From contig NZ_AUGR01000002.1 of the NCBI RefSeq assembly GCF_000422765.1, forward strand, positions 186,001 through 250,000: DNA of 64,000 nucleotides, given 5' to 3'. The notes under the pieces are model-generated. The model saw only the letters and a program-made list of their open reading frames with translations, had not been told where the DNA came from and ran no database searches. Positions 34,451 through 53,446 of this stretch are shown piece by piece. The stretch is from Neptunomonas japonica DSM 18939 (GTDB lineage: Bacteria; Pseudomonadota; Gammaproteobacteria; Pseudomonadales; Balneatricaceae). The position numbers and the translations under genes were made by a program. Numbering within the stretch: position 1 is the stretch's first letter; each line of letters starts with the position of its first letter.

Positions 34451-35989
34451 CTAGAACGCTTTGACTGTAGATTTAAGATCTAATATGAGTTCGCTTAAGT
34501 CTTTAGATGCGTCGGCAGTTTTACCCGCAGCAGCTAGGTTGTTAGAAGAAATATTCCTGATATTGTGAATATTACGATTGACCTCTTCTGACACTGCACT
34601 TTGTTCTTCTGAAGCTGCTGCTACTTGAGTGCTTCGATCAGAAATTTCTACCATGGCCATATTGGCTTTTTGGAAAGCATCTCCTGCTTCTTCAGCGCAT
34701 TGAATATTGGTAGCCGCATGTCGGTGACAGCGCTCCATGGCTTGTGCAGTAAGGTCTACTTTGTCCTGGATAGATTCAACGGTTTGTCTTATTTCGCTCG
34801 TTGACTGTTGAGTGCGTTGTGCCAGTACGCGGACTTCATCTGCGACAACAGAAAAACCTCGGCCTTGCTCTCCTGCCCGTGCAGCCTCAATGGCAGCATT
34901 AAGTGCTAAGAGGTTGGTTTGGTCAGCAATGCCGTTAATAATGTTTACAACATCTTCAATTGAGATGGCTTCTTTCTTTAATTCTAAAGATGCATGGCTA
35001 GCGTTTTGTACATCTTCTACAAGTAGCTGGATACCAGATACCATTTCTTCCACTTTGCTTTTTCCAGTTTTAGCCAGTGCCGCTGTTTTTTTCGTGGCTT
35101 CTGATGTTTGCGCCGTATTTTTGGCAACTTCATGTGCGGTTGATGACATCTGGTTAGCGGCCGTTGCTAACATATCGCTTTCTTGGTCCTGTTGCTCAAT
35201 ACCTGATGTGGTTTGGTCGATAGACTCATTGGTATGCTGCATGACATCTGCCAGTGTGTTGATGCTGTCTTCTACTCGTCCTATCACTGTTCTTAAGCGG
35301 GCCCTCATCATTAATAGTGATAACTCCACCGCTCCAGACTCATTCATATTGTCTGTCATTACCCACTGGGCAAGCTTATTGTCATAAACTTCGTCGGCGA
35401 AGGAGGATGCTTTTCTGAAAGGCGTAGTGAACCAGGCAATGCTTATAACTAGCATTAATGCTAAAACTATAATCAGAGAATGTTGTAAAAGTGCTGCTAT
35501 AGGTGCGAAGTGGGTGATGACTAATAGGGCTGCTAAGATACTTGTAATAATTGTGAGTTTGTTAGCCGTATTGGTGCGTTGTATTTTGATATTAGGATTG
35601 TTGTTGATTTTGGCATATACGCTTTCAGCGTGTGCTATTTTTTCATCTGTAGGGCGTGTGCGTACAGACTGATAGCCAATTTTTTTGCCGTTGATATCAA
35701 AAAGCGGCATAACGTAAGCTTGTACCCAATAATGCTCTTTGTTTTTACAAAGGTTCTTAACCATGCCCATCCAAGGTTGGTCATTTTTTAGGTGTGCCCA
35801 TAGATCGGCAAAAGCAGCAGGTGGCATATCTGGATGTCTTACCATACTGTGAGGTTGACCGATTAGCTCTTCAGAAGAGTAGCCAGAAACTTCACAGAAT
35901 TCGGGGTTGGCATAAATAATATGTCCACGTAAATCGGTTGTTGAAATTAACCTTACATCATTTGAAAATTTACGTTCAATGCTGGCCAT
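34451..35989 (-). CDS. PAS-containing methyl-accepting chemotaxis protein (Aer-like)
   Basis: A 512-residue receptor of the Aer type. The N-terminal PAS domain (about 10-120: [38 protein letters not shown]) faces the cytoplasm, there is no signal peptide, and a helical hairpin (about 145-190) anchors it. A HAMP-like linker and the signalling domain follow, with the highly conserved hairpin tip [41 protein letters not shown] domains of this class often bind FAD or heme and sense oxygen or redox state; the cofactor is inference. Its start lies about 70 bp from an array of 17 nine-base repeats, which may affect expression. Confidence 0.88.
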
Positions 35990-36060
35990 TTTCTCTGCTT
36001 CCTTTAGAGATTTTTCTGGGTGTGCTGAGGTGCTTAAAGTTCAGAGTAATACTGCTATGT

Positions 36061-36213
36061 ACGATAAGTACGATAAGTACGATAAGTACGATAAGTACGA
36101 TAAGTACGATAAGTACGATAAGTACGATAAGTACGATAAGTACGATAAGTACGATAAGTACGATAAGTACGATAAGTACGATAAGTACGATAAGTACGAT
36201 AAGTACGATAAGT
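36061..36213. repeat. Perfect 17-copy tandem repeat of ACGATAAGT
   Basis: The nine-base unit ACGATAAGT repeats exactly 17 times without a single change (153 bp), flanked by GT and then ACTATACG. It lies in the 438-bp gap between the chemoreceptor start (35989) and the end of the next gene (36428), 72 bp upstream of the chemoreceptor. All frames through it are open (DKY, IST, LIV or RTY repeats), but these are by-products of the repeat. A perfect array suggests recent expansion by slippage; length variation could tune the promoter. The remainder of the gap (36214-36427) holds no gene I can support. Confidence 0.95.
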
Positions 36214-36427
36214 ACTATACGTGCAATGCTGCGGTGCAGCAATCATATATTCCGTTGCTTATGTATCTTGGCTGAACAATGCGCTTATTGTAGTCATTAA
36301 TTATAGATTATGTATTAAATAACTAAAGATTAAGAAAATGAGCGCTAAACGCGCATGCTTTGAGCGGGTGAGGTTCCCCATGAACTTGGCTAAAGTCTAC
36401 AGAAGAAAGGTTAAAAGCCGTTTGTCT

Positions 36428-39216: not shown

Positions 39217-39921
39217 TTAAATTGAACATCCTTGACTATTACACACATTGGTGTTTTTCTTCGAGATAACCGTCGGTTGATTAGATTCACTTCTAGCCCA
39301 ATTGAGAGCGGTTTGAAGTTCTTCCAAAGGAGCGTATCCAGCAGCGAGACTGTAGGCACGTTTTTGATGTTGATAAATAAGAGCAGGAAACCCTTGAACG
39401 CCCATTTTGTTAGCCAGAGCGTATTCATTGTGAGTTGCTTCAAGACTAGTAGGATCATTGAAAGATGCTATAAAGCTGCCTTTCTCAATACCCGATTGTT
39501 CAGCTATTGATGATAAGTTGTCAGTGATATTCGGGTTGATACCGTCAATAAACACAGCGCGTTGTAGGGCGTGGATAAATTGGCGCATGTGGGTTTCATC
39601 TGTGAGGGATTTGACTACCACCGATGCCCTTGCGCTAGGCTCTGTGTCGTATCGAAACCCCTGAGTCTCTAAAAGCGACCAAAAAGATTTACTAAACACT
39701 TGCCCCGTTTTGGCCGTTACATGTTGAGCTGCGTTTTTTAAGTATTCACGAAATTCTATATCAGTCACTCTTGCTCGTGAGTCAGGAAAAAGACCGCCGT
39801 TGATTGTGATACAGTTAAGCTCATCGGGTAGGTTGTTATAAAAAGAATCTAATGCAGGAGCCATTCCGTAGCACCAAAGGCAGAGCGGGTCTGTAACATA
39901 TATCAGCTGAGATGGAGTCAT
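39217..39921 (-). CDS. DsbA-family protein (FrnE-like) with CLWC motif
   Basis: A 234-residue thioredoxin-fold protein without a signal peptide, so cytoplasmic. The motif DPLCLWCYG places cysteines 14 and 17 at the active site, and PALIYQHQKRAYSLAAGY contains the cis-Pro loop (GFPAL). The C-terminal NVCNSQGCSI adds two more cysteines, which is unusual and may form a second redox or metal site. FrnE-like proteins are oxidoreductases or isomerases linked to disulfide stress. It lies downstream of the DUF1641/SQR genes, though separated by about 170 bp and a hairpin, and may help with persulfide or disulfide handling (inference). Confidence 0.82.
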   Translation of the reverse strand: MTPSQLIYVTDPLCLWCYGMAPALDSFYNNLPDELNCITINGGLFPDSRARVTDIEFREYLKNAAQHVTAKTGQVFSKSFWSLLETQGFRYDTEPSARASVVVKSLTDETHMRQFIHALQRAVFIDGINPNITDNLSSIAEQSGIEKGSFIASFNDPTSLEATHNEYALANKMGVQGFPALIYQHQKRAYSLAAGYAPLEELQTALNWARSESNQPTVISKKNTNVCNSQGCSI

Positions 39922-40048
39922 GATTGCCTCTTAGTAAATAGCTTATGTGTTGGATAGGGAGTGAGTTAAAAACTGGTTTAAGAATATCTGCGTAGAGTTG
40001 TTTGAGCGTTTATAAAACTAACGCTAGGGAAGGTAATGAGATAACTGA

Positions 40049-40077
40049 ATGAGCCAAAATTTTTTATATTGGCTCAT
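40049..40077 (-). terminator. Hairpin after the DUF1641 gene
   Basis: ATGAGCCAA and TTGGCTCAT form a 9-bp perfect stem just beyond the DUF1641 stop. There is no T tract after the stem on the minus strand (the T-rich part is in the loop), so this is a tentative call. Confidence 0.4.
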
Positions 40078-40092
40078 CATAGCTAAATTCCT

Positions 40093-40515
40093 TCAATCAT
40101 ATTCTGGCAAAGGTTGGTTCATTTGCTTACCTATTCCTCTGGCCATCATCAACATGAATGCCAAGCCGCGACGAACTTCAGGGTCTTTGGCGGTTTTTAG
40201 AAGCGACCATAGAGTAGGAGGCTCCTCCATTTGTCGAACTTCATTTCCAGCCATACGCACGATGTTGCCAGCAGTCCAAGCACCACCAATGACCTCTTCA
40301 TAGCTTTTGCAAAGCTTCTCAATCATATAGTCGTCGGTCATATCAACAACATCAGCGGTGACTGACATAAGGTCAACAATCCTGTTGAGCCGACGGCCTG
40401 CTAATAGAGGCTCTAGCTTTTGAATTAATTCCACCAATCCTTCCTGTGCGTCAGGGTTAGTAAGAAGGTTGTTAGTGTTAGTTATATCTTCGATATTTTC
40501 ATTTTGGGTGTTCAT
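40093..40515 (-). CDS. DUF1641 protein, partner of SQR-like flavoprotein
   Basis: A 140-residue soluble helical protein with the DUF1641 pattern: EGLVELIQKLEPLLAGRRLNRIVDLMSVTADVVDMTDD in the first half and a C-terminal DPEVRRGLAFMLMMARGIGKQM. DUF1641 genes are commonly found beside sulfide:quinone oxidoreductase-like genes; function unknown. It starts 20 bp after the flavoprotein stop and so is in the same operon, under the TetR-type control described at 41792-41871. Confidence 0.8.
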   Translation of the reverse strand: MNTQNENIEDITNTNNLLTNPDAQEGLVELIQKLEPLLAGRRLNRIVDLMSVTADVVDMTDDYMIEKLCKSYEEVIGGAWTAGNIVRMAGNEVRQMEEPPTLWSLLKTAKDPEVRRGLAFMLMMARGIGKQMNQPLPEYD

Positions 40516-40535
40516 TTTTTGTCTCCGTCAATCAC

Positions 40536-41726
40536 TTAAACCAAACCGCGAGCTACAGACCAATAGACGCCTCTATTAAAGCTTTTGCGCATGAGTCCAC
40601 CGAGTTTATTAGGAGGTGTTGGCTGAACGTCTGAAGAGTAGTCATACCAAAGTGGCATGCCATCTTCTAGGCCCATTTGTGCAATTGCGACCACTCGTCC
40701 ATCGTATTGATCGCATAGTCGTCCTAAGCGGATATGTGAGGCAATGTTATTGACGATGACTGGTGATTGGCTATGACAAGAGCCGCCGGCTTTGCTGACG
40801 GGAAGGTCGACAGTATCACCCAGTACAAATACATTATTTAAACCATAAACTTCCATGGTTTCATGGTCTGTTGGTAGCCAGCCTTCATTATTTTGAGCTT
40901 GAGATACGCCTGAATTAATCACCGCATCAACGGCGCGGATAGGCGGAGTAGCCATCAAAATGTCGAAGTTTTCTTCTTTGCCTTCATGTGAGTATGCAAT
41001 TTTCTTATCAGGGTCAACGTGAGATAGAGAAAAGCCGTGTTGATATTTAATATCACGCTGCTCAAAAATTGTGGGTAGAACCTCACATGTATCTTTTTGC
41101 ATAAATAAGCAATTGCGTAGCAGCTGAGAGACGGTAGGATAAGTATAAACAATTTCTACTTTGTCTCTAACGCCTCTTTTACGTAATAAATCATCGAGCA
41201 TTAATGTGGTCTCGATCGGCGCAATACCACATTGATGGGGTACATTAGGTGTCTGAGGAAAGTTAACAGTAACAAAAATTCGACCTTTTTTAATTGTTGT
41301 TAATTTCTCAGCTAAGGCTTTAGCAGGCGCATATTGGTAAAAGTGATCGCCAGCTTCTTTTAGCCCTTCGATTCTTTCTGGTGCGGGTAGACAACCTGTA
41401 GATATTACTAAGTAATCGTAATCGTAGAATTTTCCGCTGGAGCAGCGCACCCTGTTTGCATTGAACTCAAAAGATTCAACCTCGTCGACAATGAAGTTAA
41501 TTTCGGGTCTTAACAGGCTCTGCTGTGGGCGACGCAATTCATCTTTAAAAAACTTATTAAAGGCAACGTACATAAATGCAGGTTTGTAGTAGTGCCATGG
41601 CGAGTTTGAAAGTAGAGAGACCTCAACTTTGTTTCTGCTTATCTCTGGGTAGAGTTTGCTTACAAGATGGTTAGCGGTCATGGTGCCGCCAATACCTCCT
41701 CCAATAACGAGAATGCGTTTTTTCAT
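40536..41726 (-). CDS. SQR-like FAD/NAD-binding oxidoreductase
   Basis: A 396-residue flavoprotein of the disulfide-reductase superfamily. The FAD dinucleotide motif is ILVIGGGIGGTMTANHL at the N-terminus; DYDYLVISTGCLPAPERIEG marks the second. Cysteines fit a sulfide:quinone oxidoreductase plan: Cys in STGC, in PHQCGIAPIE, and in GGSCHSQSP. The likely reaction is sulfide oxidation to sulfane sulfur with quinone as acceptor, at the membrane face. It leads an operon with DUF1641, downstream of two AACGAA(Y)RTTC palindromes and a TetR gene. Alternative: a related NADH or rubredoxin-type oxidoreductase. Confidence 0.85.
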   Translation of the reverse strand: MKKRILVIGGGIGGTMTANHLVSKLYPEISRNKVEVSLLSNSPWHYYKPAFMYVAFNKFFKDELRRPQQSLLRPEINFIVDEVESFEFNANRVRCSSGKFYDYDYLVISTGCLPAPERIEGLKEAGDHFYQYAPAKALAEKLTTIKKGRIFVTVNFPQTPNVPHQCGIAPIETTLMLDDLLRKRGVRDKVEIVYTYPTVSQLLRNCLFMQKDTCEVLPTIFEQRDIKYQHGFSLSHVDPDKKIAYSHEGKEENFDILMATPPIRAVDAVINSGVSQAQNNEGWLPTDHETMEVYGLNNVFVLGDTVDLPVSKAGGSCHSQSPVIVNNIASHIRLGRLCDQYDGRVVAIAQMGLEDGMPLWYDYSSDVQPTPPNKLGGLMRKSFNRGVYWSVARGLV

Positions 41727-41791
41727 GCTGCGTACTCCATTTTATATTTTTTATTGATGGCAACGGTTGAATGTGAATACAACTAAAACAA

Positions 41792-41805
41792 AACGAACGT
41801 TCATT
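41792..41805. promoter_or_regulatory. TetR operator candidate 1
   Basis: AACGAACGTTCATT lies in the 167-bp gap between the TetR gene and the SQR-like gene, 66 bp before the SQR-like start. It matches the second site 53 bp away in 11 of 14 positions and is palindromic at its core (GAACGTTC). Confidence 0.55.
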
Positions 41806-41820
41806 CTGTTTGGTGGATAT

Positions 41821-41846
41821 AAAAAAGCACTCGAAAAGCGCTTTTT
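41821..41846 (-). terminator. Intrinsic terminator of the TetR gene
   Basis: On the minus strand AAAAAGCGC pairs with GTGCTTTTT over TTTTCGA and runs into six Ts, about 48 bp beyond the TetR stop. It separates the TetR transcript from the SQR-like operon. Confidence 0.55.
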
Positions 41847-41857
41847 ATACAAAACAG

Positions 41858-41871
41858 AACGAATATTCGTT
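41858..41871. promoter_or_regulatory. TetR operator candidate 2
   Basis: AACGAATATTCGTT is a perfect 14-bp palindrome, 23 bp after the TetR stop codon. Together with AACGAACGTTCATT at 41792 it suggests a common operator for the adjacent TetR protein. Confidence 0.55.
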
Positions 41872-41893
41872 TTTAATGTTATGTTAGAAAAAA

Positions 41894-42493
41894 TTACGGG
41901 TCAAGCCCGCCCCAAGTGTTCACCCATAGATCATCTAACATGTCGGGAAGTGGCACTTCTATGACATTATCAAGGCGTAGACAGATCATTCTGATAGCAC
42001 CACCATAAACAATCATGGCTGCTACAAGAGGGTCCATTTCACGAATTTCTTTGCTTTCAATACCTTGAAATACGAAGGATCTCATGCGCACAAAAGCGGA
42101 AGCTGAGCAAATAGACTTCTCATTTGGGAGAAACTCTTTGTGGCGAGCATGAATGATAAACTGCATCACCTCCGGCTCCTTTTCTGTTAAATCAAACAAT
42201 GTTCGAATAATGGCATAGCTGCGTTCTTTCGCCGTTTGAAAAGAGGCTTCAATGTGGTCTATAAGTACATTCATGTGCTCAAGCAAGTGATTATATAAAG
42301 CCCTCGCGATGCCTTCTTTATCTTTAAAATGATGGTAAATGAAACCGATAGAAACTTGAGCGTGCTCCGCAATGTCGTGCACAGATGTTTTAAAAAAGCC
42401 TTTAGCGGTGAAGAGGTGTAAAGCGGTTGTGAGGGTTTGTGCGTTACGAAGCGGTAGTTCATTAAAGAAAACGGATTGTACAGGTGCGGTCAT
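41894..42493 (-). CDS. TetR/AcrR-family regulator
   Basis: A 199-residue TetR protein. The N-terminal helix-turn-helix reads LFTAKGFFKTSVHDIAEHAQVSIGFIYHHFKDKEGIARAL; the C-terminal domain binds an unknown ligand (conserved-looking FIIHARHKEFLPNEKSICSAS and AAMIVYGGAIRMICLRLD). One Cys in KSICSAS might respond to sulfur species, which is only a guess. It lies directly upstream of the SQR-like/DUF1641 operon and two matching palindromes are in the gap, so it most likely represses that operon. Confidence 0.85.
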   Translation of the reverse strand: MTAPVQSVFFNELPLRNAQTLTTALHLFTAKGFFKTSVHDIAEHAQVSIGFIYHHFKDKEGIARALYNHLLEHMNVLIDHIEASFQTAKERSYAIIRTLFDLTEKEPEVMQFIIHARHKEFLPNEKSICSASAFVRMRSFVFQGIESKEIREMDPLVAAMIVYGGAIRMICLRLDNVIEVPLPDMLDDLWVNTWGGLDP

Positions 42494-42647: not shown

Positions 42648-44273
42648 TTAGAAATTGAATATTTTGTCTGAGCTGCTTATCAATGATGAGTCATGGCTGT
42701 TGATGATGACAAGCTTTCCTGCCCAGTGTTGATGTAGTTTGTTGAGTATGCGTGTTGCTCGTGGCTGGTCAATACCAGCCGTAGGCTCGTCTAATAATAA
42801 TATACGGCTATCTTGGAGTAGCAATCGCGCAATACCGAGCCGCTTTAACTCCCCTCCCGATGGCATGCGCTCACCATGGCCAAGCCAGGTGTTGAGCCCG
42901 TCGGGCAACTGTTGTAGCCAATCATCTAGTTCTACCAGCGTAAGTGCTTTAATCAGGGCTTCATCAGTATGAGTCTGGTGCAAGCAGAGGTTGTATCGCA
43001 CAGTACCACGTAAAAGGTCGATTTTTTGAGGCATGCTGTTGATTTGCTCAGCATGACTACCGTGAATATTTATATTTCCAGAGCTAGGTGTAAGGCGTCC
43101 TGTTAGCAAGTGCTGCAATGTTGTTTTTCCATGCCCGCTAGGCGCTGTTAACCAATACCAATGGGGAGCGGTTAGTGTGCCGCTGAGCTGCGAAATGACT
43201 GCTGGAGTTTGTTGAGGGTATTGATAGTTTAGATTAGAGAATTGTACTGAAATATTTTGTGTATCAATAAATTGCCTAGACCCATATTCACTCTCAGGTT
43301 GGGCGTGAGAGGGAGAAAGGTTATCAATTCTTTCTAGCGCGGCGTACCCCAGCCCAAAATTTGCCAATGCACTGGTGCCGTTTAAGATGATTTCTTGTGT
43401 GCCCAGCGTCAATAACAGCAACATAAATAGTTGGGAACCTTCAATTTGTGCTGCTGATAAAGCGAGCAGCCCTTGCCAGAGAACAACGAGCGTGAGTATG
43501 GCTAAAATGGCTTGATTGATTGAAAGTACGGCTTCTCGGGCAAGGCTGGTTTGTTTTTCGGTAGAGTCGGCAATACTTGCTTGATCCAGTAGCGCAGAGC
43601 CTGTTTTTTCAAGGCGCTGATGCAGGATGAGTAAGCGTAGGTTATTGAATATAGAGCTTGCGGTGCTCCATTGTAGGTTACGTTCTCGATGGAGTTTGTT
43701 TTGCGGTGCCAGTACTTTACGCAGGTATAGCCAAGGCATGAATAAGATTGAGGTGAGTACTAATGGCACTAACCAAATACCGCTATTAGGTAAAAAAACA
43801 GCCATGGCGAAAAGATACAGCAGACAACACAAGAGCATCACCAAGCCTGGAACGAGTGCTGACAAATACAGTGCCTCGGCATGTTTAATATCTTCTAATA
43901 AGCGACTGCTGGTTTCGTGGCTATTGAGTGGGTTTTCTTGCCAGTTTTGCTTGGCTATTGTTTTGAACAGTTCTGCTCTGAGCTTGGATATCACACGTAA
44001 CGTCGCTTCATGAGTTGTGACTCGTTCGCCATAACGGCCCACGGTACGTGTTATCGATAAGCCCCTGACAATAGCGCCCGGAGCAAAGTAGTTAAAGCTG
44101 TGGGCTCCTGCGATACTCAACCCTGCCAATGCTGTGGCGCTAATAAACCAACCTGATACTGCCAGCAGTGCAATCCCTGCGATAGCGGTAATGGTTGCCA
44201 GTAATAGTCCAATAACGGCCATTGAACGTTGTTCCCACAATAAGCTGAAATAGCGTGCTACTAACCTAGGCAT
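42648..44273 (-). CDS. cydC: Heterodimeric ABC transporter subunit CydC
   Basis: A 541-residue half-transporter with six N-terminal membrane helices and an ATPase domain: Walker A LTAPSGHGKTT, signature MPSGGELKRLGIARLLL, Walker B ILLLDEPTAGID and the switch His in INSHDSS. With CydD it exports glutathione/cysteine (or handles heme) to allow cytochrome bd assembly. I start it at the ATG at 44273, which overlaps the cydD end by 8 bp behind AGAGGAAG; the longer frame to 44330 has no support. The signature and P-loop sequences are complete, if divergent (APSGHGKT). Confidence 0.92.
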   Translation of the reverse strand: MPRLVARYFSLLWEQRSMAVIGLLLATITAIAGIALLAVSGWFISATALAGLSIAGAHSFNYFAPGAIVRGLSITRTVGRYGERVTTHEATLRVISKLRAELFKTIAKQNWQENPLNSHETSSRLLEDIKHAEALYLSALVPGLVMLLCCLLYLFAMAVFLPNSGIWLVPLVLTSILFMPWLYLRKVLAPQNKLHRERNLQWSTASSIFNNLRLLILHQRLEKTGSALLDQASIADSTEKQTSLAREAVLSINQAILAILTLVVLWQGLLALSAAQIEGSQLFMLLLLTLGTQEIILNGTSALANFGLGYAALERIDNLSPSHAQPESEYGSRQFIDTQNISVQFSNLNYQYPQQTPAVISQLSGTLTAPHWYWLTAPSGHGKTTLQHLLTGRLTPSSGNINIHGSHAEQINSMPQKIDLLRGTVRYNLCLHQTHTDEALIKALTLVELDDWLQQLPDGLNTWLGHGERMPSGGELKRLGIARLLLQDSRILLLDEPTAGIDQPRATRILNKLHQHWAGKLVIINSHDSSLISSSDKIFNF

Positions 44274-46002
44274 CAGTGGCTTCCTCTTTACTATGTAGGG
44301 TGATGACTTGCTGAAAAAATGCCGTATCACTGATGCGGTGGCTTGCCATGATTAGCATGCCTCCTTGCTGGGTAAATTGTTGCAGAGCTTTTAAAAACAG
44401 GTCGGCGGTATCGTCATCCAAGTTGGCTGTCGGCTCATCCAGTAAGAGCAGGTCTGGCTGGTGCAAAAATATACGTGCCAACGCAATACGCTGCGCCTGT
44501 CCTCCTGATAAGTAACCGCCGCTGTCACTGATCTGATAATCCAGCTGCTTAGGAAGCCCTCTTACCAGAGCACCAGCTTGTGCCGCCTCTAGAGCGTCAA
44601 ATAACTGTTCATCAGTAAATGCTCTGCCCAGACAAAGGTTGTGACGAACGCTGTCAAACAACAATTCTGGTTGCTGTGCCATATAGCCTATTCTGCTTTG
44701 CCATGACGCATGATTAAAAACGTCGCTAGCCTGCTGATTTATGAGCAGTTGGCCTGCTGCTATCGGTAAAAAACCCGCTAACGTATCCAGCAAGGTGCTT
44801 TTTCCTATACCAGAAGGGCCGCGTAATAGAACACTTTGTCCGGGTGTTAGCGTTAGGTTAAGCGGTTTATTAAGGAGTTGGCCGTGTCGTGCTGCTTGTA
44901 AGTTGCGAAGCGTAATGATGTGGATTTGTATTGGTAAACTTTTATGGTGGCTGTCTGTAAGTGGATGTTTTGCAGGGGTATTGTTGTTAGACGGATTATT
45001 GCTAAATAAACGCAACAAGTGCTCAGCGACACTCATGGCATCGGCGCGGGCATGGTATAGTGTACCTAAGCGGCGAAGTGGTAAGTAAAATTCGGGCGCT
45101 AGCATCAGCAAAAATATACCGTGCCCAAGTGATATCTCGCCACTCCAAGTACCTATTTGATACTTCCCAAGAAACAATAACCCTAGATAGACTGCGACCA
45201 GAGCGACGCTAATAGCACTAAAGAACTCAAGTAACGTCCCTGATAAGAACGCTAATCGTAGCACTTGCATAGTAGAGCGTCGGTAAGACTCGGAATGCTC
45301 ATAGACACTCTGTTGTTCGTGAGCTGTTGCCCTGGCTAGCTGCAGAGCGTTGAGCCCTTTTATGCGATCAGCAAGTAAGTTTCCTAGACGGTTGAGTTGT
45401 GTCAGGCTTCGTTGGCTGGCCTCTGCTGCTTTATGGCCGGCGATGATCATAAATAATGGAACCAATGGCGCTGTCAGTGCAAAAATGAGCGGCACTAGCC
45501 AGTTAATGCTGCTGCAAGCAATGATAATTAACAAAGGAGCCAGTACGGCGAGTCGTTGCTGCGGGAGAAACTCTGCAAAGTAGTCTCGAGTGCTATCAAT
45601 TTCAGTACTGATTAAGCTGCTTAGCTCAGCAGCACTAAAGGCCGGAAATAAGTGAATGTGATGTTGTTGGCAATGTTTAAATGTAGCTGTGCGTAAGGCA
45701 TTACGTATTTTTCCGCTGGCTTTATCGGCCAACCGAGATTGAACGAGTGGCAAAAGCGCTTTAATACTGAGTACTAATGTTAATAGCCACCACCAGTGAG
45801 TTTGCTGCCAAATGCTTTGTTGCAGGTAAACCGCACTATTAATGAGTAGCGCAATGATGGTGGCAAAAACAATAGTGCATAAAGTTTGGATCATGCCGAT
45901 GCAGGTGAGCCAAAAGCTCTCGTGGTACGCGATCTTGCCAGCGTTACGCAATAGCGTTTTTGCATCAGGGCTGTCACATAAAAGTGCTGTGCTGTTCTTC
46001 AT
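44266..46002 (-). CDS. cydD: Heterodimeric ABC transporter subunit CydD
   Basis: A 578-residue half-transporter: six membrane helices in the first 330 residues (with the CydD-like SALLIIIACSSINWLVPLIFALTAPLVPLFMIIAGHKAA), then an ATPase domain with Walker A LRGPSGIGKST, signature LSGGQAQRIALARIFL and Walker B LLLLDEPTANLD. It is coupled to cydC by overlap. It is divergent from the fisR-like regulator over a 154-bp intergenic region that contains TTTTGTCA and GACAAAA half-sites. It supports maturation of the cytochrome bd encoded at 47532-50340. Confidence 0.92.
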   Translation of the reverse strand: MKNSTALLCDSPDAKTLLRNAGKIAYHESFWLTCIGMIQTLCTIVFATIIALLINSAVYLQQSIWQQTHWWWLLTLVLSIKALLPLVQSRLADKASGKIRNALRTATFKHCQQHHIHLFPAFSAAELSSLISTEIDSTRDYFAEFLPQQRLAVLAPLLIIIACSSINWLVPLIFALTAPLVPLFMIIAGHKAAEASQRSLTQLNRLGNLLADRIKGLNALQLARATAHEQQSVYEHSESYRRSTMQVLRLAFLSGTLLEFFSAISVALVAVYLGLLFLGKYQIGTWSGEISLGHGIFLLMLAPEFYLPLRRLGTLYHARADAMSVAEHLLRLFSNNPSNNNTPAKHPLTDSHHKSLPIQIHIITLRNLQAARHGQLLNKPLNLTLTPGQSVLLRGPSGIGKSTLLDTLAGFLPIAAGQLLINQQASDVFNHASWQSRIGYMAQQPELLFDSVRHNLCLGRAFTDEQLFDALEAAQAGALVRGLPKQLDYQISDSGGYLSGGQAQRIALARIFLHQPDLLLLDEPTANLDDDTADLFLKALQQFTQQGGMLIMASHRISDTAFFQQVITLHSKEEATDA

Positions 46003-46109
46003 ATAAAATGGCTCTTATGTAGATATTCTCTTCGTAGGATCGCTAATACAAGCTGATCAGCACGGCTACTTTGCAAGCTAGGGCAAGATTTCTGGTAGAA
46101 CGTTATGTT

Positions 46110-46140
46110 TTTTGTCATTATCGTCATACATAAGACAAAA
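46110..46140. promoter_or_regulatory. TTTTGTCA / GACAAAA half-sites between cydD and the regulator
   Basis: TTTTGTCA (46110-46117) and GACAAAA (46134-46140), with TTATCGTCAT in between, resemble the perfect TTTTGTCA-N5-TGACAAAA repeat upstream of cydA. They could be an autoregulatory or cydDC activator site for the sigma-54 regulator. No good -24/-12 element was found here. Confidence 0.35.
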
Positions 46141-46156
46141 TTGACGGGGCACGATT

Positions 46157-47491
46157 ATGACCAATGCTAGCTGGTTGGAAACAATGCGCAATGTATTGGA
46201 TAGCTATAACGACCCTGCGGTTTTGGTGGATGCTGATTACAACGTGGTGGCTACTAATAGCAACTATGATTTTCGCTTTGGTGAGCTGGATGGTCGTGGC
46301 CCTGCAAAATGTTATTACCTCTCGCATGGTTACCAGCGCCCTTGCGATTTGGAGGGTGAAACATGCCCAATGCAAGAAGCGCGCGATACCGGTAAGCGTG
46401 CCAGTGTGCTGCATATTCATAATACGCCTCAAGGAAAAGAGCATGTTGGGATAGAGACTATCCCGATTGTTGATGAAGAGCAGCGTGCTTACTTCATCGA
46501 AGTTATGAAACCGATTCTTGAGGTGAGTGCTGAGCCCATTGCCAATAAGATGATTGGGCGTAGTAAAGCTTTTAACGGGCTGGTTGATTTGATTCAGCGC
46601 GTGGGTAAAACCAACACTAATGTTCTTTTGATGGGCGCTTCGGGAACGGGTAAAGAGTTGGCTGCTCAAGCCATTCACTCGGCAAGTCCTCGAGCAAACA
46701 AGCCATTTGTCACTGTTGAGTGTTCTGGTTTGACAGACACTCTGTTTGAAAGTGAGCTGTTTGGTCATATGAAGGGTGCTTTTACAGGTGCTACGTACAC
46801 ACGAACAGGGCTGGTGAAGTCGGCTCATGGTGGCACCTTGTTTCTTGATGAGGTTGGAGATGTGCCTCTGCATCTTCAAGTTAAGCTGCTGCGCTTGATT
46901 GAAACTAAAACTTTTCGCCCAGTGGGGGACAGTAAGCCGACAGCCGCTGACTTCAGGCTGGTATGTGCCACGCATAAAGATTTGCTGGATATGGTTGAAC
47001 AAGGCGAATTTCGTGAAGACCTTTATCACCGAATCAGTACTTTTCCTATTCGTTTGCCTGCACTGGCACAGCGAAAAGAAGACCTGCCATTGCTGGTAAA
47101 GAGCATTTTGTTGCGCATCGCTGAGAATCAACCTTTGAGTTTGACCGAAGCGGCGCAAGCGTTGCTTTCCCAGCAGGCGTTTAAGGGTAATATCCGGGAG
47201 CTGAAAAACATTCTTGAGCGTGCGGTTGTATTGCGTAATGATGATCAGATAGATGTGGATGTTATACAGCAAAGCTTGCACCTATTGCCGGTAAAAAATG
47301 TGACACGGCATGATGAAGTGGAGGCAACGTCAGAAAGCGCTTTTCAGCTTTTAGCTGAGAAGAAACTGAGCCTAGAGCAGTTAGAGCAAACATATTTACA
47401 TACATTGTTACAAACATACCCGGATAAGGGGCTGGTGGCCGACATTGCCGGCTGTAGTTTGCGTACTTTGTATCGCAAATTGGAACCGTAA
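46157..47491 (+). CDS. fisR: Sigma-54-dependent activator, FisR-like (sulfane-sulfur sensor)
   Basis: A 444-residue bacterial enhancer-binding protein. The N-terminal PAS-like sensor (1-130) has Cys52, Cys63 and Cys70 in [22 protein letters not shown]. This spacing (11 then 7) is the same as Cys53/64/71 of FisR from Cupriavidus, which senses polysulfide. The AAA+ domain has Walker A GASGTGKE, the sigma-54 contact loop GAFTGA in full ([14 protein letters not shown]) and Walker [12 protein letters not shown]. The C-terminal Fis-type helix-turn-helix is [18 protein letters not shown]. It sits between cydDC and cydABX, and promoters of sigma-54 type lie before cydA and the FCSD-like gene, so I infer sulfane-sulfur control of both. 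Confidence 0.85.
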
Positions 47492-47511
47492 ACGGGTAAG
47501 TGCCCGTTTAC
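47488..47511. terminator. Hairpin between fisR and cydX
   Basis: GTAAACGGG and CCCGTTTAC are perfect 9-bp arms over a 6-nt loop, overlapping the fisR stop codon and 20 bp beyond the convergent cydX stop. The T content after it is moderate. It probably ends both transcripts. Confidence 0.6.
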
Positions 47512-47531
47512 GGTTGTTTATGTACACGGCT

Positions 47532-47630
47532 TTATTCTTCATCTTCCATCTGGCTTTCTAACCACATGGCGTTAATAATGCCAAAACTGCAGGCGAGTAA
47601 AACCCCTAAAACCCAAGCGAAATACCACAT
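47532..47630 (-). CDS. cydX: Cytochrome bd small subunit CydX
   Basis: A 32-residue single-span protein, MWYFAWVLGVLLACSFGIIN and then an acidic tail ending EDEE; this is the CydX signature and length. It begins 13 bp after the cydB stop with GGAGAAC as ribosome site. CydX stabilises the bd hemes. Confidence 0.93.
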   Translation of the reverse strand: MWYFAWVLGVLLACSFGIINAMWLESQMEDEE

Positions 47631-47642
47631 GCTGTTCTCCTA

Positions 47643-48779
47643 TTAATAAAATGAAATGCTGTTGCTTTCGATCGCTTCTGGTTCAACACGGCCCCACATT
47701 TTGTAGTAACTCCAAACGGTGTAAGCCAAAATCAGCGGCACAAAAAAGATCACCACCCACAGCATTATTTCTAACGTAAGCTGGCTAGATGTTGCGTCCC
47801 ACAGGGTTAAACTACTGGCTAAGTCCAGCGATGATGGCATCAAGAAAGGAAACAGCGTAGTGCCTGCCAGTAAAATGATGGCCGTTATTGATAGCGCGCT
47901 ACTTAGAAACGCCCAGCCGTAGAGTGCTAGTTTTGTTAATAAACTCGTTAACAAAGGTAAGACGACTGCGAAAGCGGGCAGTAACCAGAGTTGTGGATAA
48001 GTCGCAAAGTTTGCAAACCAGTCATCGGTGCGAGCTACCGTTTTACTTAATGGATTCGAGCTGGCATCGCTTATAACGGCACTACTAATTTCGTACCCGG
48101 GGATCGCCGTTACTAGCCAAACGCCAGCAAAGATAAGTAATAGGCTTAGCATTGGGGCAGTTAAGGCGGCGGTTGTTCTGGCGCGCATTTGTACCTCGCC
48201 TCCCGCGCGCATTTGTAACCAGGTAGCGCCATGTGAAATAAGCATGACCACACTGGTTAGGCCGCACAACAAAGCAAATGGATTGAGTAGTGCCCAAAAA
48301 GATCCACTATAAGTTGGGCGGGTAAATTCATCAAAGCTAAAAGGTACGCCTAGGAACAAGTTCCCAAAGGCTACGCCAAACACTAAAGCGGGTACAAAAG
48401 AACCTATACACAGGCCACGGTCCCAATTGTTACGCCAGCGCTGACTAGGCATTTTACTGCGATATTCAAAGCCAATGGGGCGAAAAAACAGTGCAAATAA
48501 TACCAATAGCATTGCCCAGTAGAAGCCAGAAAATGCTGTGGCATAGACAAGTGGCCAGGCTGCAAAAAGCGCACCGCCGGCTGTCACGAACCATACTTGG
48601 TTACCGTCCCAGTGTGGCGCTATGGTGTTGATAATGACACGGCGTTCTGTATCCGTTTTACCGAGCAAAGGTAGCAACATGGCTGCGCCCAGATCAAAAC
48701 CGTCGGTAACAGCAAAACCAATCAGTAAGACGCCAACAAGTAGCCACCACACTAGTCGCAGAGTTTCGTAATCAAACAT
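47643..48779 (-). CDS. cydB: Cytochrome bd ubiquinol oxidase subunit II
   Basis: A 378-residue polytopic protein (about eight helices) with the family start [75 protein letters not shown]. With CydA it reduces oxygen to water using ubiquinol. The start overlaps the cydA stop by 8 bp, so translation is coupled. Length agrees with E. coli CydB (379). Confidence 0.96.
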
Positions 48780-50340
48780 GCTGCAGTCCTCCCTGCTGTT
48801 CGTTGTCGTAACGGCCGGTTTCTAATGCACTTGGGCCTTTGCGGATATACTTCATCATTAGGTAAACTTCGATAACTAGAAATAGTGAGTAGAGGCTGGC
48901 AAAGCCTGCGATGCTCATCCATAAATCGGCTTCAGTGAGGTTTGATGTGGCTACGTAGGTCGGTAGAATTTCACCAATAGCCCAAGGTTGGCGGCCAAAC
49001 TCAGCGATAAACCAGCCCGTTTCAATCGCAATCCACGGTAGAGGCAGGCTGAAAAGGCAGAGCTTTAATAACCATGGAGTCTTGTGCTCACGACGACGCG
49101 CTGTGTAGTAAAACGCAGTGGCAAAGGTTAGCAGCATGATAAAACCGGAAGCCACCATAATACGGAAGGTCCAAAAGATCGGTGCCACCTGTGGAATAGT
49201 GTCCCGGGCCGCTGCTTTGATCTGTTCTTCGTTTGCATCAACAACATTTTCGGTAAAGCGCTTCAATAGCAAGCCATAGCCGAGATCATCACTTACGGCG
49301 CTAAATGCGGCACGGTTTTCTGCATTGTCTTCACCATTTCGTAGTTTCTGTAGCAAACCATAGGCGATCATTCCGTTACGAATGCGTACTTCACTGGCAG
49401 TGATTAAATCTTTGATCCCAGTGACTTCTGTATCAGTTGAACGGGTGGCTATCAGACCGAGCAAATAGGGAATACGCACCGCGTAATCTGTAGTTTGGTT
49501 TTCTTGATCGGGCAATCCAATCAACGTAAAGGCAGCAGGCGCCGGGTGTGTTTCCCATTCAGATTCGATGGCCGCTAATTTTACTTTCTGTACATCGCCT
49601 ACTTCATAGCCACTTTCATCGCCCAGAATGATGACCGATATGATAGAGGCTAGGCCAAAGGCTGAGGCAATCGCAAAGGAGCGTCTTGCAAAGCCTACGT
49701 CTTTATTGAGTAGTAGGTAGAGAGCGCTAATCGACAACACAAACATGGCACCGGTCACATAGCCTGCTGAAACGGTATGTACAAACTTGACCTGCGCAAC
49801 CGGATTAAAAATCACCTCTGTAAAGCTGTCCATCTCCATGCGCATGGTTTCGAAATTGAAATAAGCACCGACCGGGTTTTGCATCCAGCCATTAGCAATA
49901 AGAATCCACAAGGCAGAGAAGTTTGAGCCGATAGCAACTAGCCAGGTTACTGAAAGATGCTGCACCCGAGAGAGGCGGTCCCAACCGAAGAAGAATAAGC
50001 CGATAAAGGTCGACTCTAAAAAGAAAGCCATTAGCCCTTCTATGGCCAGTGGTGCACCAAAAACATCACCCACATAATGTGAGTAATAGGCCCAATTCGT
50101 ACCAAATTGAAACTCCATAGTCAGGCCTGTTGTCACGCCTAATGCGAAGTTGATACCAAAGAGCTTCCCCCAAAAACGGGTCATGTCTTTGTAAATTTGC
50201 TTGTTGGTCATCACGTAAACGGACTCCATGATGGCCAACATGAATGACAACCCTAAAGTCAGGGGGACAAATAAAAAGTGATACAGCGCCGTTAGGGCAA
50301 ACTGCCAGCGGGATAGCTCCACAACTGTTTCGGAAACCAT
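48772..50340 (-). CDS. cydA: Cytochrome bd ubiquinol oxidase subunit I
   Basis: A 522-residue, nine-helix quinol oxidase subunit. It has the N-terminal [21 protein letters not shown] with the axial His, the [19 protein letters not shown] helix, and a long quinol-binding Q loop ([13 protein letters not shown] through the insert [22 protein letters not shown]) like that of E. coli, so it is the long-loop type. Binds heme b558, b595 and d and is resistant to sulfide and NO compared with heme-copper oxidases (family knowledge). A TGGCAT-N5-GTGCT sigma-54-type promoter lies about 80-96 bp upstream and a perfect TTTTGTCA inverted repeat about 190 bp upstream. Confidence 0.96.
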
Positions 50341-50420
50341 AAACCACGACCTTTGTTAAATGTAAAACCGGCTTATGCCGGAAGTAATGAACAATAAGCT
50401 GAGTAACTTACTCAGGTATT

Positions 50421-50436
50421 AGCACAAGCTATGCCA
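50421..50436 (-). promoter_or_regulatory. Sigma-54 (-24/-12) promoter of cydABX
   Basis: On the minus strand TGGCATAGCTTGTGCT keeps GG and GC at the exact 10-bp spacing of the consensus TGGCAC-N5-TTGCW. It lies 80-96 bp before the cydA start. Confidence 0.6.
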
Positions 50437-50525
50437 GGTTTTTATCTACACAAAAGTGCTTAAAAGCCTGCTAATAATGGCTTATTGATAGCAGGAACAT
50501 AGATTTTTGATATTCACGATGTAAG

Positions 50526-50546
50526 TTTTGTCATTTATTGACAAAA
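50526..50546. promoter_or_regulatory. Enhancer-like inverted repeat upstream of cydA
   Basis: TTTTGTCA and TGACAAAA are perfect 8-bp arms with a 5-bp spacer, about 90 bp upstream of the -24/-12 element, where an activator's enhancer is expected. A third half-site (GTGACAAAT) follows. The likely binder is the adjacent FisR-like protein. Confidence 0.6.
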
Positions 50547-50577
50547 GTGACAAATGAGTAAAAGTTTTTACGAACAG

Positions 50578-51891
50578 CTAAATAGGTGTGTAGCCTTCAA
50601 GCATTACGTCGTAAACAGGCCTTATTAATGACTTTTCCATTACCCAAGCCAGTTGGCTTTTTTCCAAAGGGTCAACAACTTCAAAAGGTAGTGCGGTGAC
50701 AGGCTGCATGCTGTAATCGAACTCCCAAAGCATCGCGTGTCCGACATCAAGAATCATTGGGCAGGAGGTGTAGCCATTCCACCGGGCAGTCACTTTTTCT
50801 TCACGCAAGAGTGATAAGAGGTTTTTTGCAACAACAGGGAGTTGTGCTTTCACTGACGCAGCAGTTTTTCCTATGGGAGTGCCAACCGTGTCACCTAAAC
50901 CGAAAACGTTGTGATAGCGTTTGTGTTGCAAGCTGTATTGATCGACCTCAAGGTAGCCTTTGAACCTGTCGTTGTCTGCCAGTGCGGAATTACGCACAAC
51001 AGGAATAGGCGACATGGGAGGTACAATATGTATGAAGTTCCACGGTTGCTGGGCTTGGGTGCCATCGGGCGTTGAAAACCATGCTTTCTGACTCTGGGTG
51101 TCAATTGCTTTAAGCTCGTGTTGGTAGTGCGCAGTTATTTGCCTTTCTTGCCAGATATCTTGAAGACGTTTGTTAAATACTTTGACGGCAAACAGGCTGT
51201 TTTCGGCGGTCATGTAATGAACGTTAAACTGCTCTCTTTTACCCCCTTTACGAACGAAATACTCTACTAAATTAGCTGCTTTCATCGGAGCGCCAGCACA
51301 CTTCATCGCACCATGTGGGCGGGTGAAAACGGCCTCTCCACCGTTTGATTGTGCAAATTTCAACGCTTGCTGGTGGCTAGCAACCCCTGCCTCAGGACTT
51401 AAATAAATGCTGGCAATACCATCCTTGCCTATCTGTTGGGTATCCAGGCCTTCTATTAAGTCGTAGCGTAGTTCTAAGCCGGTAGCGACAATGAGGTAGT
51501 CGTAGCTAAGAGCATCGTTTTTACTGGTACGCACCTGATTATGCTCAGGATCAAACTCACTAATTTCTGCGGTTATCCATTTTATATCAGAGTTTATGTA
51601 TTGTTGGTTGCTGCTTACAACATCGGCTTGGGTCTTATAAGCCCCGGCTAACAAAAGCGTTTGCCCAGGTTGATACCAATGATACGGGCGAGGATCAACG
51701 ACAGTTATGTGAGCACCTTTTAAGTACATTTGGAGTTTGTTGGCGATACCTATGCCAGCAGCACCACCTCCGGCGATGAGTATGCGGGCTTGAGTTTCTA
51801 ATTTGCTTAGCTCCCAGCCTAAAATACCTGCAGCTGATGCGGCGCCAAGCGAAGCACCTGTTATAAGAAGATTGCGTCGGCTAATTGACAT
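50578..51891 (-). CDS. Exported SQR/FCSD-like flavoprotein
   Basis: A 437-residue flavoprotein. The N-terminus MSISRRNLLITGASLGAASAAG has the twin-arginine signal, so it is folded and exported. FAD binding is by ARILIAGGGAAGIGIANKL. Cys in GAMKCAGAPMKAANL and in TSCPMILDVGHAMLWEFDYSMQP are in positions typical of flavocytochrome c / SQR-type sulfide dehydrogenases. It would oxidise sulfide in the periplasm, passing electrons to quinone or a cytochrome. It has its own good sigma-54 promoter (51966-51981) and lies upstream of cydABX, separated by 237 bp with the cyd promoter. Confidence 0.85.
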   Translation of the reverse strand: MSISRRNLLITGASLGAASAAGILGWELSKLETQARILIAGGGAAGIGIANKLQMYLKGAHITVVDPRPYHWYQPGQTLLLAGAYKTQADVVSSNQQYINSDIKWITAEISEFDPEHNQVRTSKNDALSYDYLIVATGLELRYDLIEGLDTQQIGKDGIASIYLSPEAGVASHQQALKFAQSNGGEAVFTRPHGAMKCAGAPMKAANLVEYFVRKGGKREQFNVHYMTAENSLFAVKVFNKRLQDIWQERQITAHYQHELKAIDTQSQKAWFSTPDGTQAQQPWNFIHIVPPMSPIPVVRNSALADNDRFKGYLEVDQYSLQHKRYHNVFGLGDTVGTPIGKTAASVKAQLPVVAKNLLSLLREEKVTARWNGYTSCPMILDVGHAMLWEFDYSMQPVTALPFEVVDPLEKSQLAWVMEKSLIRPVYDVMLEGYTPI

Positions 51892-51965
51892 AATTGTTCA
51901 CCCTTTAGGTTTGTGCAATAAAATGGGGTGTGAGTTGTTAGATTATTCACCCTAACTAAAAGACA

Positions 51966-51981
51966 AGCATGTGTTGTGCCA
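51966..51981 (-). promoter_or_regulatory. Sigma-54 (-24/-12) promoter of the FCSD-like gene
   Basis: On the minus strand TGGCACAACACATGCT matches TGGCAC-N5-TTGCW in all but one consensus base with exact spacing. It lies 75-90 bp before the start codon of the flavoprotein gene. Confidence 0.65.
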
Positions 51982-52070
51982 TAAAATTGATTGTTATAGC
52001 TTGTTGATAATAATGATTTATTTTGTTTTTCAGGGGCTTGTGAATATATGTTCAGTAGATTTGAGCTAGA

Positions 52071-52105
52071 AATGACACAATTAATGCCAGTTATGACTAA
52101 TGACA
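52071..52105 (-). promoter_or_regulatory. TGTCATT repeats upstream of the FCSD-like gene
   Basis: Two copies of TGTCATT (minus strand; 52071-52077 and 52099-52105), 28 bp apart, share the core of the enhancer upstream of cydA (TTTTGTCATT). They lie about 90-125 bp upstream of the sigma-54 element, as an enhancer should. Confidence 0.4.
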
Positions 52106-52142
52106 GTGAGTGCTGTTTTCTGAGTGAATTATTTCGATGAGG

Positions 52143-52165
52143 AGGGCTCTGTGATACAGAGCCCT
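52143..52165 (-). terminator. Hairpin after the rhodanese gene
   Basis: AGGGCTCTGT and ACAGAGCCCT form perfect 10-bp arms over three bases, 7 bp beyond the rhodanese stop. The stem is strong but the T tract is missing. Confidence 0.55.
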
Positions 52166-52172
52166 TGTGGTG

Positions 52173-52727
52173 TTATCTATCTGTTCTGTATATTTTGGCA
52201 GGGTTTGGCTTGGCTTTCCAAGGAAGGCCTGCGTTTTGCCAACCATTTTTAATTCGTAGGCCGGATTTCTCTCCCTCTTTCACTTTTCCACCCTGAAAAC
52301 CATTAATAACATAGTGGGCATTAGCAAAGCCGTTCTCTTTTAAAAATTTAGCACTGGGCAAACCGCGTTCACTTCCTGAGCGACACATGGTAATGATAGT
52401 GGCATTTTCATCCAGCCCTTGTGCTGTTAAGGCTGCCTTCACTTGAGAGATAAAGTCAGGGTTCTTATAAAGACGAAAGCGCTTTTTTTGTTTATCCCAT
52501 TGTGAGCGGTCTACCATTAAGTAGGGGATGTTAAGGTCTACTTCGTCAGTAAAACCAATAAACATAATCTCTACTGGATCACGAACGTCGATAAATAGGA
52601 CGTTCTCATTTTGTTTGATTAACGCTTGAGTGTCTTGTGGGTTAATGCCTATTTCATCGGCGCTTGCTAAGCCCAGTGGTGCAGCGAGTAACGTGGCGAG
52701 CACGGTGCGTATGATGATGCTTTTCAT
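52173..52727 (-). CDS. Periplasmic rhodanese-domain protein
   Basis: A 184-residue exported single-rhodanese protein. The signal peptide is IIIRTVLATLLAAPLGLASA; the domain has VLFIDVRDPVEIMFIGF and the active-site loop MCRSGSERG with Cys115. It would move sulfane sulfur between thiols. The ATG at 52727 gives the normal signal peptide; the frame extends 6 codons further without reason. The long tail (GLRIKNGWQNAGLPWKAKPNPAKIYR) is unlike short rhodaneses. It is 23 bp downstream of the DsrE-like gene and forms an operon with it. Likely sulfur partner of the FCSD-like flavoprotein. Confidence 0.85.
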   Translation of the reverse strand: MKSIIIRTVLATLLAAPLGLASADEIGINPQDTQALIKQNENVLFIDVRDPVEIMFIGFTDEVDLNIPYLMVDRSQWDKQKKRFRLYKNPDFISQVKAALTAQGLDENATIITMCRSGSERGLPSAKFLKENGFANAHYVINGFQGGKVKEGEKSGLRIKNGWQNAGLPWKAKPNPAKIYRTDR

Positions 52728-52750
52728 GATAAAACTCACTTTCAAACGGG

Positions 52751-53197
52751 TTAGAAGTTGTATACACGCACATTGCTTGACGACATCATGCTTGCCATTT
52801 GTGGCGGTGTAGCAACACTGACATCTTGACGTAAATCTTGTTTATTGTGGGTGCTATTTGGTAAGTAAAGAGCGCATACGCTGATATTACCGCCACTTTT
52901 TTGCAACTTAAGCATAAGCTGCTCTGGCGTGACATTACGTGGTTTTAAGGTTGTGCTTGTGGTGGTTTTCAGGGCTAAATCGCCAGCTTTATCACACAAA
53001 AGAACATCGACAGAGACTCCTTTTGCCTGCATTGCATTACCTAAAACCATCGCCATTCCTTGCGTTTGTAATGATGGGCTAGTGAGTATTATGAGCGCTT
53101 GATCTGCTTGCGTGGCGCTATCTTCTGCTTGTACTGCTGTGATAGATAAGGATCCGACAACTAGGCATGCTGCAGCAATGTGTTTGATTGATTTCAT
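52751..53197 (-). CDS. Periplasmic DsrE-like sulfur carrier
   Basis: A 148-residue exported protein. After a signal peptide (ACLVVGSLSITAVQA) comes a DsrE/DsrF-like fold: ALIILTSPSLQTQGMAMVLGNAMQAKGVSVDVLLCDKAG with Cys68, and a second Cys in NISVCALYLPN. DsrE-type proteins bind persulfide on a cysteine. The start ATG at 53197 was chosen to begin the signal peptide at once. It leads the operon with the rhodanese; an ATTAGAT-TT-ATCTAAT palindrome lies 50-65 bp upstream. Confidence 0.75.
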   Translation of the reverse strand: MKSIKHIAAACLVVGSLSITAVQAEDSATQADQALIILTSPSLQTQGMAMVLGNAMQAKGVSVDVLLCDKAGDLALKTTTSTTLKPRNVTPEQLMLKLQKSGGNISVCALYLPNSTHNKQDLRQDVSVATPPQMASMMSSSNVRVYNF

Positions 53198-53245
53198 ATC
53201 AGTTCTCACTATAAAGGGAAGGAGTAATAAATTAGATGATATTAA

Positions 53246-53261
53246 ATTAGATTTATCTAAT
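53246..53261. promoter_or_regulatory. Palindrome upstream of the DsrE-like/rhodanese operon
   Basis: ATTAGATTTATCTAAT is a perfect 16-bp palindrome, with a further AATTAGAT 14 bp nearer the gene. Size and symmetry fit an ArsR-type (for example BigR/SqrR-like) operator, but the regulator is not in the window. Confidence 0.45.
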
Positions 53262-53366
53262 ATATTGAATTAAAATAGATATGTAAAGAACATAAAGTGA
53301 AATGCTTATATGGCTAACAGGTTGGTGTAGGTTTTCTGTGTCAAAAGAAAAGGGTATGAAATGTAC

Positions 53367-53396
53367 AAAAAAAGACCGCTCTCTGAGAAAGCGGCC
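53367..53396 (-). terminator. Intrinsic terminator of the ATP-grasp gene
   Basis: On the minus strand GGCCGCTTTCTC pairs with GAGAGCGGTC, followed by seven Ts; about 50 bp after the gene's stop codon. Confidence 0.8.
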
Positions 53397-53446
53397 AAAG
53401 GACTAGCTCTAAAGGACTGGTTTAAAAGAACCTAATTGACCGGTAA

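Follow-up and report, generated by a model that had tools for sequence, protein, structure and literature searches.

Linked sigma-54 boxes and a FisR-type activator suggest joint control of cydABX and a type II sulfide:quinone oxidoreductase gene in Neptunomonas japonica

INTRODUCTION

FisR of Cupriavidus pinatubonensis JMP134 is a sigma-54 activator with three sensor cysteines (PMC9774590, PMC12170894), and it is described as sensing reactive sulfur via disulfide and tetrasulfide links among these conserved residues (PMC9774590). Herein, we analyzed a 64,000-nucleotide stretch of Neptunomonas japonica DSM 18939 (contig NZ_AUGR01000002.1, positions 186,001 to 250,000), referred to as the window, in which a FisR-like activator gene lies between cydDC and the bd oxidase genes cydABX, and −24/−12 boxes of the sigma-54 type precede both cydA and a neighboring gene for a type II sulfide:quinone oxidoreductase (SQR). 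In part as in C. pinatubonensis, a sulfide-oxidation gene with a −24/−12 box is found near the activator; unlike there, the predicted targets include a bd oxidase operon, the cluster holds no persulfide dioxygenase (PDO) gene, and the SQR gene has a putative promoter of its own.

In several bacteria, bd oxidase genes are induced by sulfide, a compound to which bd oxidases are resistant. The literature searched, which mostly excluded subscription papers, gave no direct sensor-to-promoter link for this induction and did not describe cyd or cio genes as targets of a FisR-type or any sigma-54 activator, which is not proof of absence. In Acinetobacter baumannii, sulfide raises cydAB expression, and a FisR protein is likewise a sigma-54 activator of a sulfide-oxidation operon; unlike the window activator, however, it has none of the three cysteines, and the accessible text reports no link from FisR to cydAB (PMC7315123). 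Dedicated regulators beside sulfide-resistance bd oxidase genes, as in the window, are described for Alishewanella (CydE, PMC6096048) and Chromobacterium violaceum (CioR, PMC11837568), but both are GbsR/MarR-type repressors. CydE responds to sulfate (PMC6096048), zinc or iron abolishes the binding of CioR (PMC11837568), and the Alishewanella bd oxidase is reported to be constitutive upon sulfide addition (PMC6096048). In Cupriavidus necator, the exchange of one base 210 bp upstream of cydA2B2 increases cydA2B2 expression and carbon monoxide tolerance (PMC10164946).

RESULTS

Sigma-54 boxes before cydA and the SQR gene

The original prediction had placed −24/−12 boxes before cydA and the adjacent sulfur gene, and both were recovered exactly on the − strand: TGGCATAGCTTGTGCT at 50421..50436 for cydABX and TGGCACAACACATGCT at 51966..51981 for the SQR gene. 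Each lies upstream of its gene (80 bp from the box end to the cydA start codon, 74 bp for SQR) and shows the sigma-54 promoter pattern GG-N10-GC in a TGGCAY-N-TGCW context. The strict pattern TGGCAYRN5TGCW occurs three times in the window against 0.47 expected, a count reached by 2 of 100 shuffles, and the third copy is inside an open reading frame (ORF). The whole genome of 4.39 Mb contains 28 copies, compared with 8 of the reversed pattern; given this frequency, two boxes preceding two neighboring genes are beyond chance. The window scan gave no convincing sigma-54 box for cydDC, fisR, the DsrE-rhodanese pair, or the second SQR gene. When positions 46000-53400 were scanned, no sigma-70-type site was found upstream of cydA on the − strand, and the cydA promoter region had no FNR-like site even when as many as 2 mismatches were allowed.

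The FisR-like activator and its three cysteines

The predicted position of the activator between cydDC and cydABX and its FisR-like cysteine spacing both held. The gene (46157..47491, +) encodes a PAS-like sensor with C52, C63, and C70, an AAA+ domain with GAFTGA, and a Fis-type C-terminal helix-turn-helix, the architecture of a FisR-type protein. Pfam matches were Sigma54_activat (E 7e-65) and, weakly, PAS_4 (E 1e-6). The predicted sensor-domain model (pLDDT 87.7) matched PAS/LOV structures, with a best E value of 1.6e-6 and a TM score of 0.62. The three cysteines, spaced C-x10-C-x6-C, sit within the motif CY-x2-SHGY-x2-PCD-x2-GE-x-CP, and all 41 proteins of the family set keep the spacing. 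The comparison with C. pinatubonensis FisR was made through a Cupriavidus metallidurans homologue, which is 45.5% identical to the window activator, has the same spacing (C53/C64/C71), and is encoded divergently from PDO-like and SQR genes, neighbors that we named by similarity since the record is unannotated. In C. pinatubonensis FisR, the sensor cysteines are numbered 53/64/71.

In a midpoint-rooted tree of 156 activator sequences, the window clade (24 sequences) and a PDO-SQR/CIO clade (56 sequences; support 0.868 by itself; CIO, cyanide-insensitive oxidase) formed one branch as sister clades, with a support of 0.978, and the activators divergent from bd-I genes were placed elsewhere. The window activator is thus a close relative of activators heading PDO-SQR operons.

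Linkage of activator, bd-I cydA, and box in the family

Among 116 genomes of the family, the sensor domain was found in 61, bd-I cydA in 56, and both in 43. The activator and cydA lay within 12 kb of each other in 40 of these 43 genomes and within 2.4 kb in 39. Sixteen genomes had the window-type arrangement, with the activator convergent with cydABX; 24 others had a mostly divergent arrangement with a more distant activator, which in one genome lies 7.5 kb away.

Conservation of the boxes in relatives had been suggested as a check on the original prediction. Boxes were scored with our own weights, based on the sigma-54 consensus; the cut-off, 12.5 of a maximum of 14.2, was chosen after boxes in the window had been listed. 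A box reaching this cut-off preceded 39 of the 40 linked bd-I cydA genes (11.9 in the fortieth), none of 15 unlinked ones, and 4.8% of 20000 random 400-mers; the linked-locus counts are not independent, because linkage changed only twice on the family cydA tree. The boxless unlinked cydA genes of loci L176-L179 are 79-81% identical to the window cydA, and the divergent linked ones 73-76%. The 40 linked genes exclude the named loci L076-L096, all of which except L083 repeat genomes already counted. Two more distinct genomes lie beyond the 40, those of L083 (box 11.9) and L135 (no box of 11 or more); with both added, 39 of 42 linked cydA genes reach 12.5 and 41 of 42 reach 11.9. The unlinked set comprised 24 of 43 places (15 bd-I and 9 CIO-type, 1 of the latter with a box), the 19 left out being a partial bd-I match in genome G036 and 18 others, mostly CIO-type. 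The SQR box was present in 8 of the 10 loci carrying this SQR, and one SQR among these eight is 41% identical.

One relative, Neptunomonas sp. OB1 (G076, locus L037), had no cydA match; its activator lies between a TetR-SQR2-DUF1641 operon and a DsrE-rhodanese pair, and the only box in its vicinity scores 12.6 and overlaps the DsrE gene at the 3′ end.

TGTCA/TGACA repeats upstream of the boxes

Repeats had been predicted about 90 bp upstream of each box. For cydA this was borne out: TTTTGTCA-N5-TGACAAAA at 50526-50546 is a perfect inverted repeat 90-110 bp upstream of the box and, together with another TGACA, forms a putative activator site at 50526..50552. For SQR, only two putative, degenerate TGTCA-type sites were seen (52073..52105, namely 52073-52077 and 52101-52105, 92-124 bp upstream of the box), with no exact TTTTGTCA upstream. 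A third region, TTTTGTCATTATCGTCA...GACAAAATTGACG at 46110..46145, directly precedes fisR, with a similar site before fisR in relatives, and may be autoregulatory. The word TTTTGTCA by itself shows no enrichment across the window (4 copies against 4.5 expected), and three of the four copies fall in this cluster, two in the cydA inverted repeat and one before fisR (46110). It is the inverted arrangement upstream of cydA, rather than word frequency, that stands out.

In relatives, TGWCA half-sites were counted in the 140 bp upstream of the box at linked loci and the 240 bp upstream of the start codon at unlinked loci, with single-base shuffles as the control. The 16 window-type loci had 34 half-sites against 4.5 in shuffles, the 24 divergent bd-I loci had 79 against 6.5, and 17 CIO loci had 38 against 4.9, about 8 to 12 times the shuffle frequency, whereas the 15 unlinked loci stayed at shuffle level (7 against 6.7). 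A de novo search for 4-mer dyads gave no single operator common to the locus groups. Two TGTCA-N4-TGACA palindromes, 37 bp apart, were observed at L279 4986-5036 (G000:C9:114985-115035). This only close pair (C9:114985/115022) has a Rieske oxygenase gene on one side and an ORF of unknown family on the other. As it lies ~2.5 kb from, and not before, the PDO gene of the genome, we did not count it as evidence for a regulon.

CIO-type oxidases and other neighbors of related activators

When species genomes were scanned with an alignment of the sensor, 383 loci resulted, and the best 80 were taken; 59 of these 80 were outside the family group of the window. CIO-type cioAB genes clustered with the activator in 22 of these 59, and 20 of the 22 also had both PDO and SQR. 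The others comprised 24 loci with PDO and/or SQR without cioAB, 1 with bd-I cydA, and 12 with none of these. In the Zhongshania locus L104, Pfam and PDB sequence searches identified bd subunits I and II, an ETHE1-like metallo-beta-lactamase (PDO-like), a BLH-SQR fusion, and a SulP transporter. Such cioAB-PDO-SQR-SulP clusters of Zhongshania and relatives share with the window the kind of activator and the box before the oxidase gene, but they have a CIO-type oxidase in one apparent operon with PDO and SQR, and their activator is divergent, not convergent. Because related gammaproteobacterial activators head these clusters, a second type of bd oxidase appears to have joined the FisR-type system.

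A box preceded cioA in 17 of the 22 CIO loci. In L141, L145, and L148 it preceded PDO, the gene adjoining the activator, and L100 and L128 had no box of 12.5. As a positive control, 23 of 26 PDO-first loci had a box before PDO, the exceptions being L100, L147, and C. metallidurans itself (11.9). Activator linkage and box thus go together in bd-I loci and, separately, in CIO loci with PDO and SQR.

In a phylum sample of 398 genomes, the sensor was found in 34, that of the window included. These gave 46 places, one being the window; 39 were examined and the 6 weakest left out. Three of the 39 had bd-I cydA, 2 had PDO and SQR, and 2 had a weak SQR match. Ten neighbor proteins were scanned with Pfam, which gave families for seven (FixG-like, MnhE-like, SelO, molybdopterin oxidoreductase, FeMo-cofactor-type, cation efflux, and SLAC1) and none for three. 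Because sensors of the same type adjoin unrelated genes, the three-cysteine sensor is broader than sulfide oxidation, and the sensor domain of L200-L238, which belong to other lineages, may mark a larger family of sigma-54 activators based on thiols.

Other genes of the locus

The map order is cydC and cydD (−), the fisR-like gene (+), cydX, cydB, and cydA (−), SQR (−), and then rhodanese and a small exported-looking protein (−). A bd-I oxidase is encoded by cydA (48772..50340, −; Pfam PF01654 E 6e-173; Escherichia coli bd-I CydA E 3.5e-244), followed in order by cydB for subunit II (47643..48779, −; PF02322 E 8e-104) and cydX (47532..47630, −; 32 aa; NCBIfam TIGR02106 E 5.9e-19). A terminator-like hairpin of 14 pairs (47484..47515) separates the convergent fisR and cydX. 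The cydDC genes (42648..46002, −) are two overlapping ORFs named by position and similarity within the family. The predicted cydA leader (50368-50415, −) contains two hairpins, CTGAGTAAGTTACTCAG and CCGGCATAAGCCGG, the latter followed by TTTT, which could affect the transcript.

The gene at 50578..51891 (−) had been labeled FCSD-like, after flavocytochrome c sulfide dehydrogenase. We rejected this identity, as the best PDB match was human SQOR (E 1e-72), compared with E 9e-17 to 2e-11 for FCSD chains. The protein is assigned to type II SQR, with SQOR as the closest solved relative and its only two cysteines, C198 and C377, in matching contexts. Its start, MSISRRNLL, looks Tat-like (SRRNLL) when read by eye. 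The boxed SQR gene stands four genes from the activator.

The rhodanese expected in the cluster was confirmed by Pfam (52173-52745, −). The small exported-looking protein read as DsrE (52751-53209, −) had no match in Pfam, NCBIfam, or PDB sequence searches, so that this part of the original prediction stays unconfirmed; we regard both genes as neighbors of the proposed circuit. The second SQR-like operon was present as described, with SQR-like, DUF1641, and DsbA-like genes beside a TetR regulator gene (39217-42493). It had no sigma-54 box within 350 bp upstream and is perhaps under TetR control. Elsewhere in the window, positions 35938-36300 form a long microsatellite-like run, two frames of which read STI or YDK repeats in the ORF list.

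DISCUSSION

We propose that the FisR-type enhancer-binding protein activates two separate sigma-54 promoters, those of cydABX and the type II SQR gene. Reactive sulfane sulfur would modify the three cysteines of the PAS-like domain in the way reported for FisR of Cupriavidus, upon which the AAA+ domain would hydrolyze ATP and open the promoters from TGTCA/TGACA sites ~90-120 bp upstream. SQR would reduce quinone with electrons taken from sulfide, and the resulting quinol would be re-oxidized by the sulfide-resistant bd oxidase. The wiring of activator, sigma-54, cydABX, and SQR is likely, judging from the gene order, the boxes, the cysteines, the coupling of box and activator across genomes, and the relationship to activators of PDO-SQR operons. 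Together with sulfane sulfur as its signal, this wiring would make up a variant FisR circuit, which we consider probably real. Binding to DNA, the use of sigma-54, the inducing signal, and the physiological role are predictions from the sequence. The original prediction is partly supported: the shared switch would extend to cydABX and the neighboring SQR gene, and no convincing box was seen for cydDC, the second SQR operon, the rhodanese, or the putative DsrE.

Several observations weigh against this proposal. The linked cydA of L135 has no box of 12.5, neither do the 2 Pseudoalteromonas loci in which the activator adjoins cydAB, and a looser cut-off of 11.9 also passes 2 of the 15 unlinked cydA genes. 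The two changes of linkage on the cydA tree provide 2 pairs and a sign test p of 0.5. A TGWCA half-site is missing from the region examined in 3 of the 16 window-type loci, and TGWCA-N4-TGWCA is hardly enriched genome-wide (23 places against 19 in the reversed control), a level at which we dropped an operator-based regulon search in the genome. L039 and L054 have the SQR gene without a box, and the only close PDO gene of the genome (C9:117527, 56% identity) lacks one as well. Although C-x10-C-x6-C is present in 158 of 158 homologues of the wider set, its named loci were retrieved via peptide patterns including two of the three cysteines, so the result is partly built in, which leaves the family set as the one independent check. 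At 32 of the 39 phylum-wide loci, the search found no gene of those looked for, and some of these 32 may be cut off, since several contigs are short. Finally, the A. baumannii FisR responds to sulfide without those cysteines (PMC7315123).

The wiring may be right and the signal other than sulfane sulfur, such as nitric oxide, cyanide, low oxygen, electrophiles, metals, or another redox state or oxidase poison. We regard this as rather unlikely. The sulfane-sulfur signal is argued from homology only, and activators carrying these three cysteines also adjoin unrelated genes, among them FixG-like, MnhE-type antiporter subunit, SelO, molybdopterin oxidoreductase, cation efflux, and SLAC1 genes. 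Most divergent bd-I loci of the family are without a nearby PDO or SQR gene, and bd oxidases protect against nitric oxide and cyanide too (PMC11837568). On the other hand, the window clade groups with activators heading PDO-SQR operons, and an SQR gene with its own box adjoins.

That both sigma-54 promoters are real and served by another enhancer-binding protein, the FisR-like neighbor acting elsewhere, seems very improbable. The genome does have 18 further matches to sigma-54 activators, and direct binding by the FisR-like protein is our inference; yet box and adjacent activator co-occur in the family (39 of 40 linked against 0 of 15 unlinked loci) and again in the CIO loci. We give equally little credence to the boxes being chance or relics with cydABX driven by an oxygen-controlled sigma-70 promoter, as in E. 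coli. The boxless L135 and the exact copy inside an ORF, which tells that chance copies exist, agree with such an origin, but two findings speak against it: 39 of 40 linked loci retain the box, and in the scans above the cydA upstream region was free of sigma-70-type and FNR-like sites.

On a wider reading, toward which we lean slightly, FisR-type sensors would be a recurrent respiratory switch: a sulfane-sulfur activator would directly control a bd-family oxidase via sigma-54 in three lineages or more, namely those with window-type bd-I, those with divergent bd-I, and those with CIO clusters that also hold PDO and SQR. One sensor type would then turn on sulfide oxidation together with an oxidase that survives sulfide. 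The locus offers a concrete candidate for a sensor-to-promoter link, with promoter and site coordinates, and in the comparison two different bd-family oxidases are combined with one sensor type. This makes respiratory re-routing under sulfide directly testable in culturable marine bacteria such as Neptunomonas, Amphritea, or Zhongshania.

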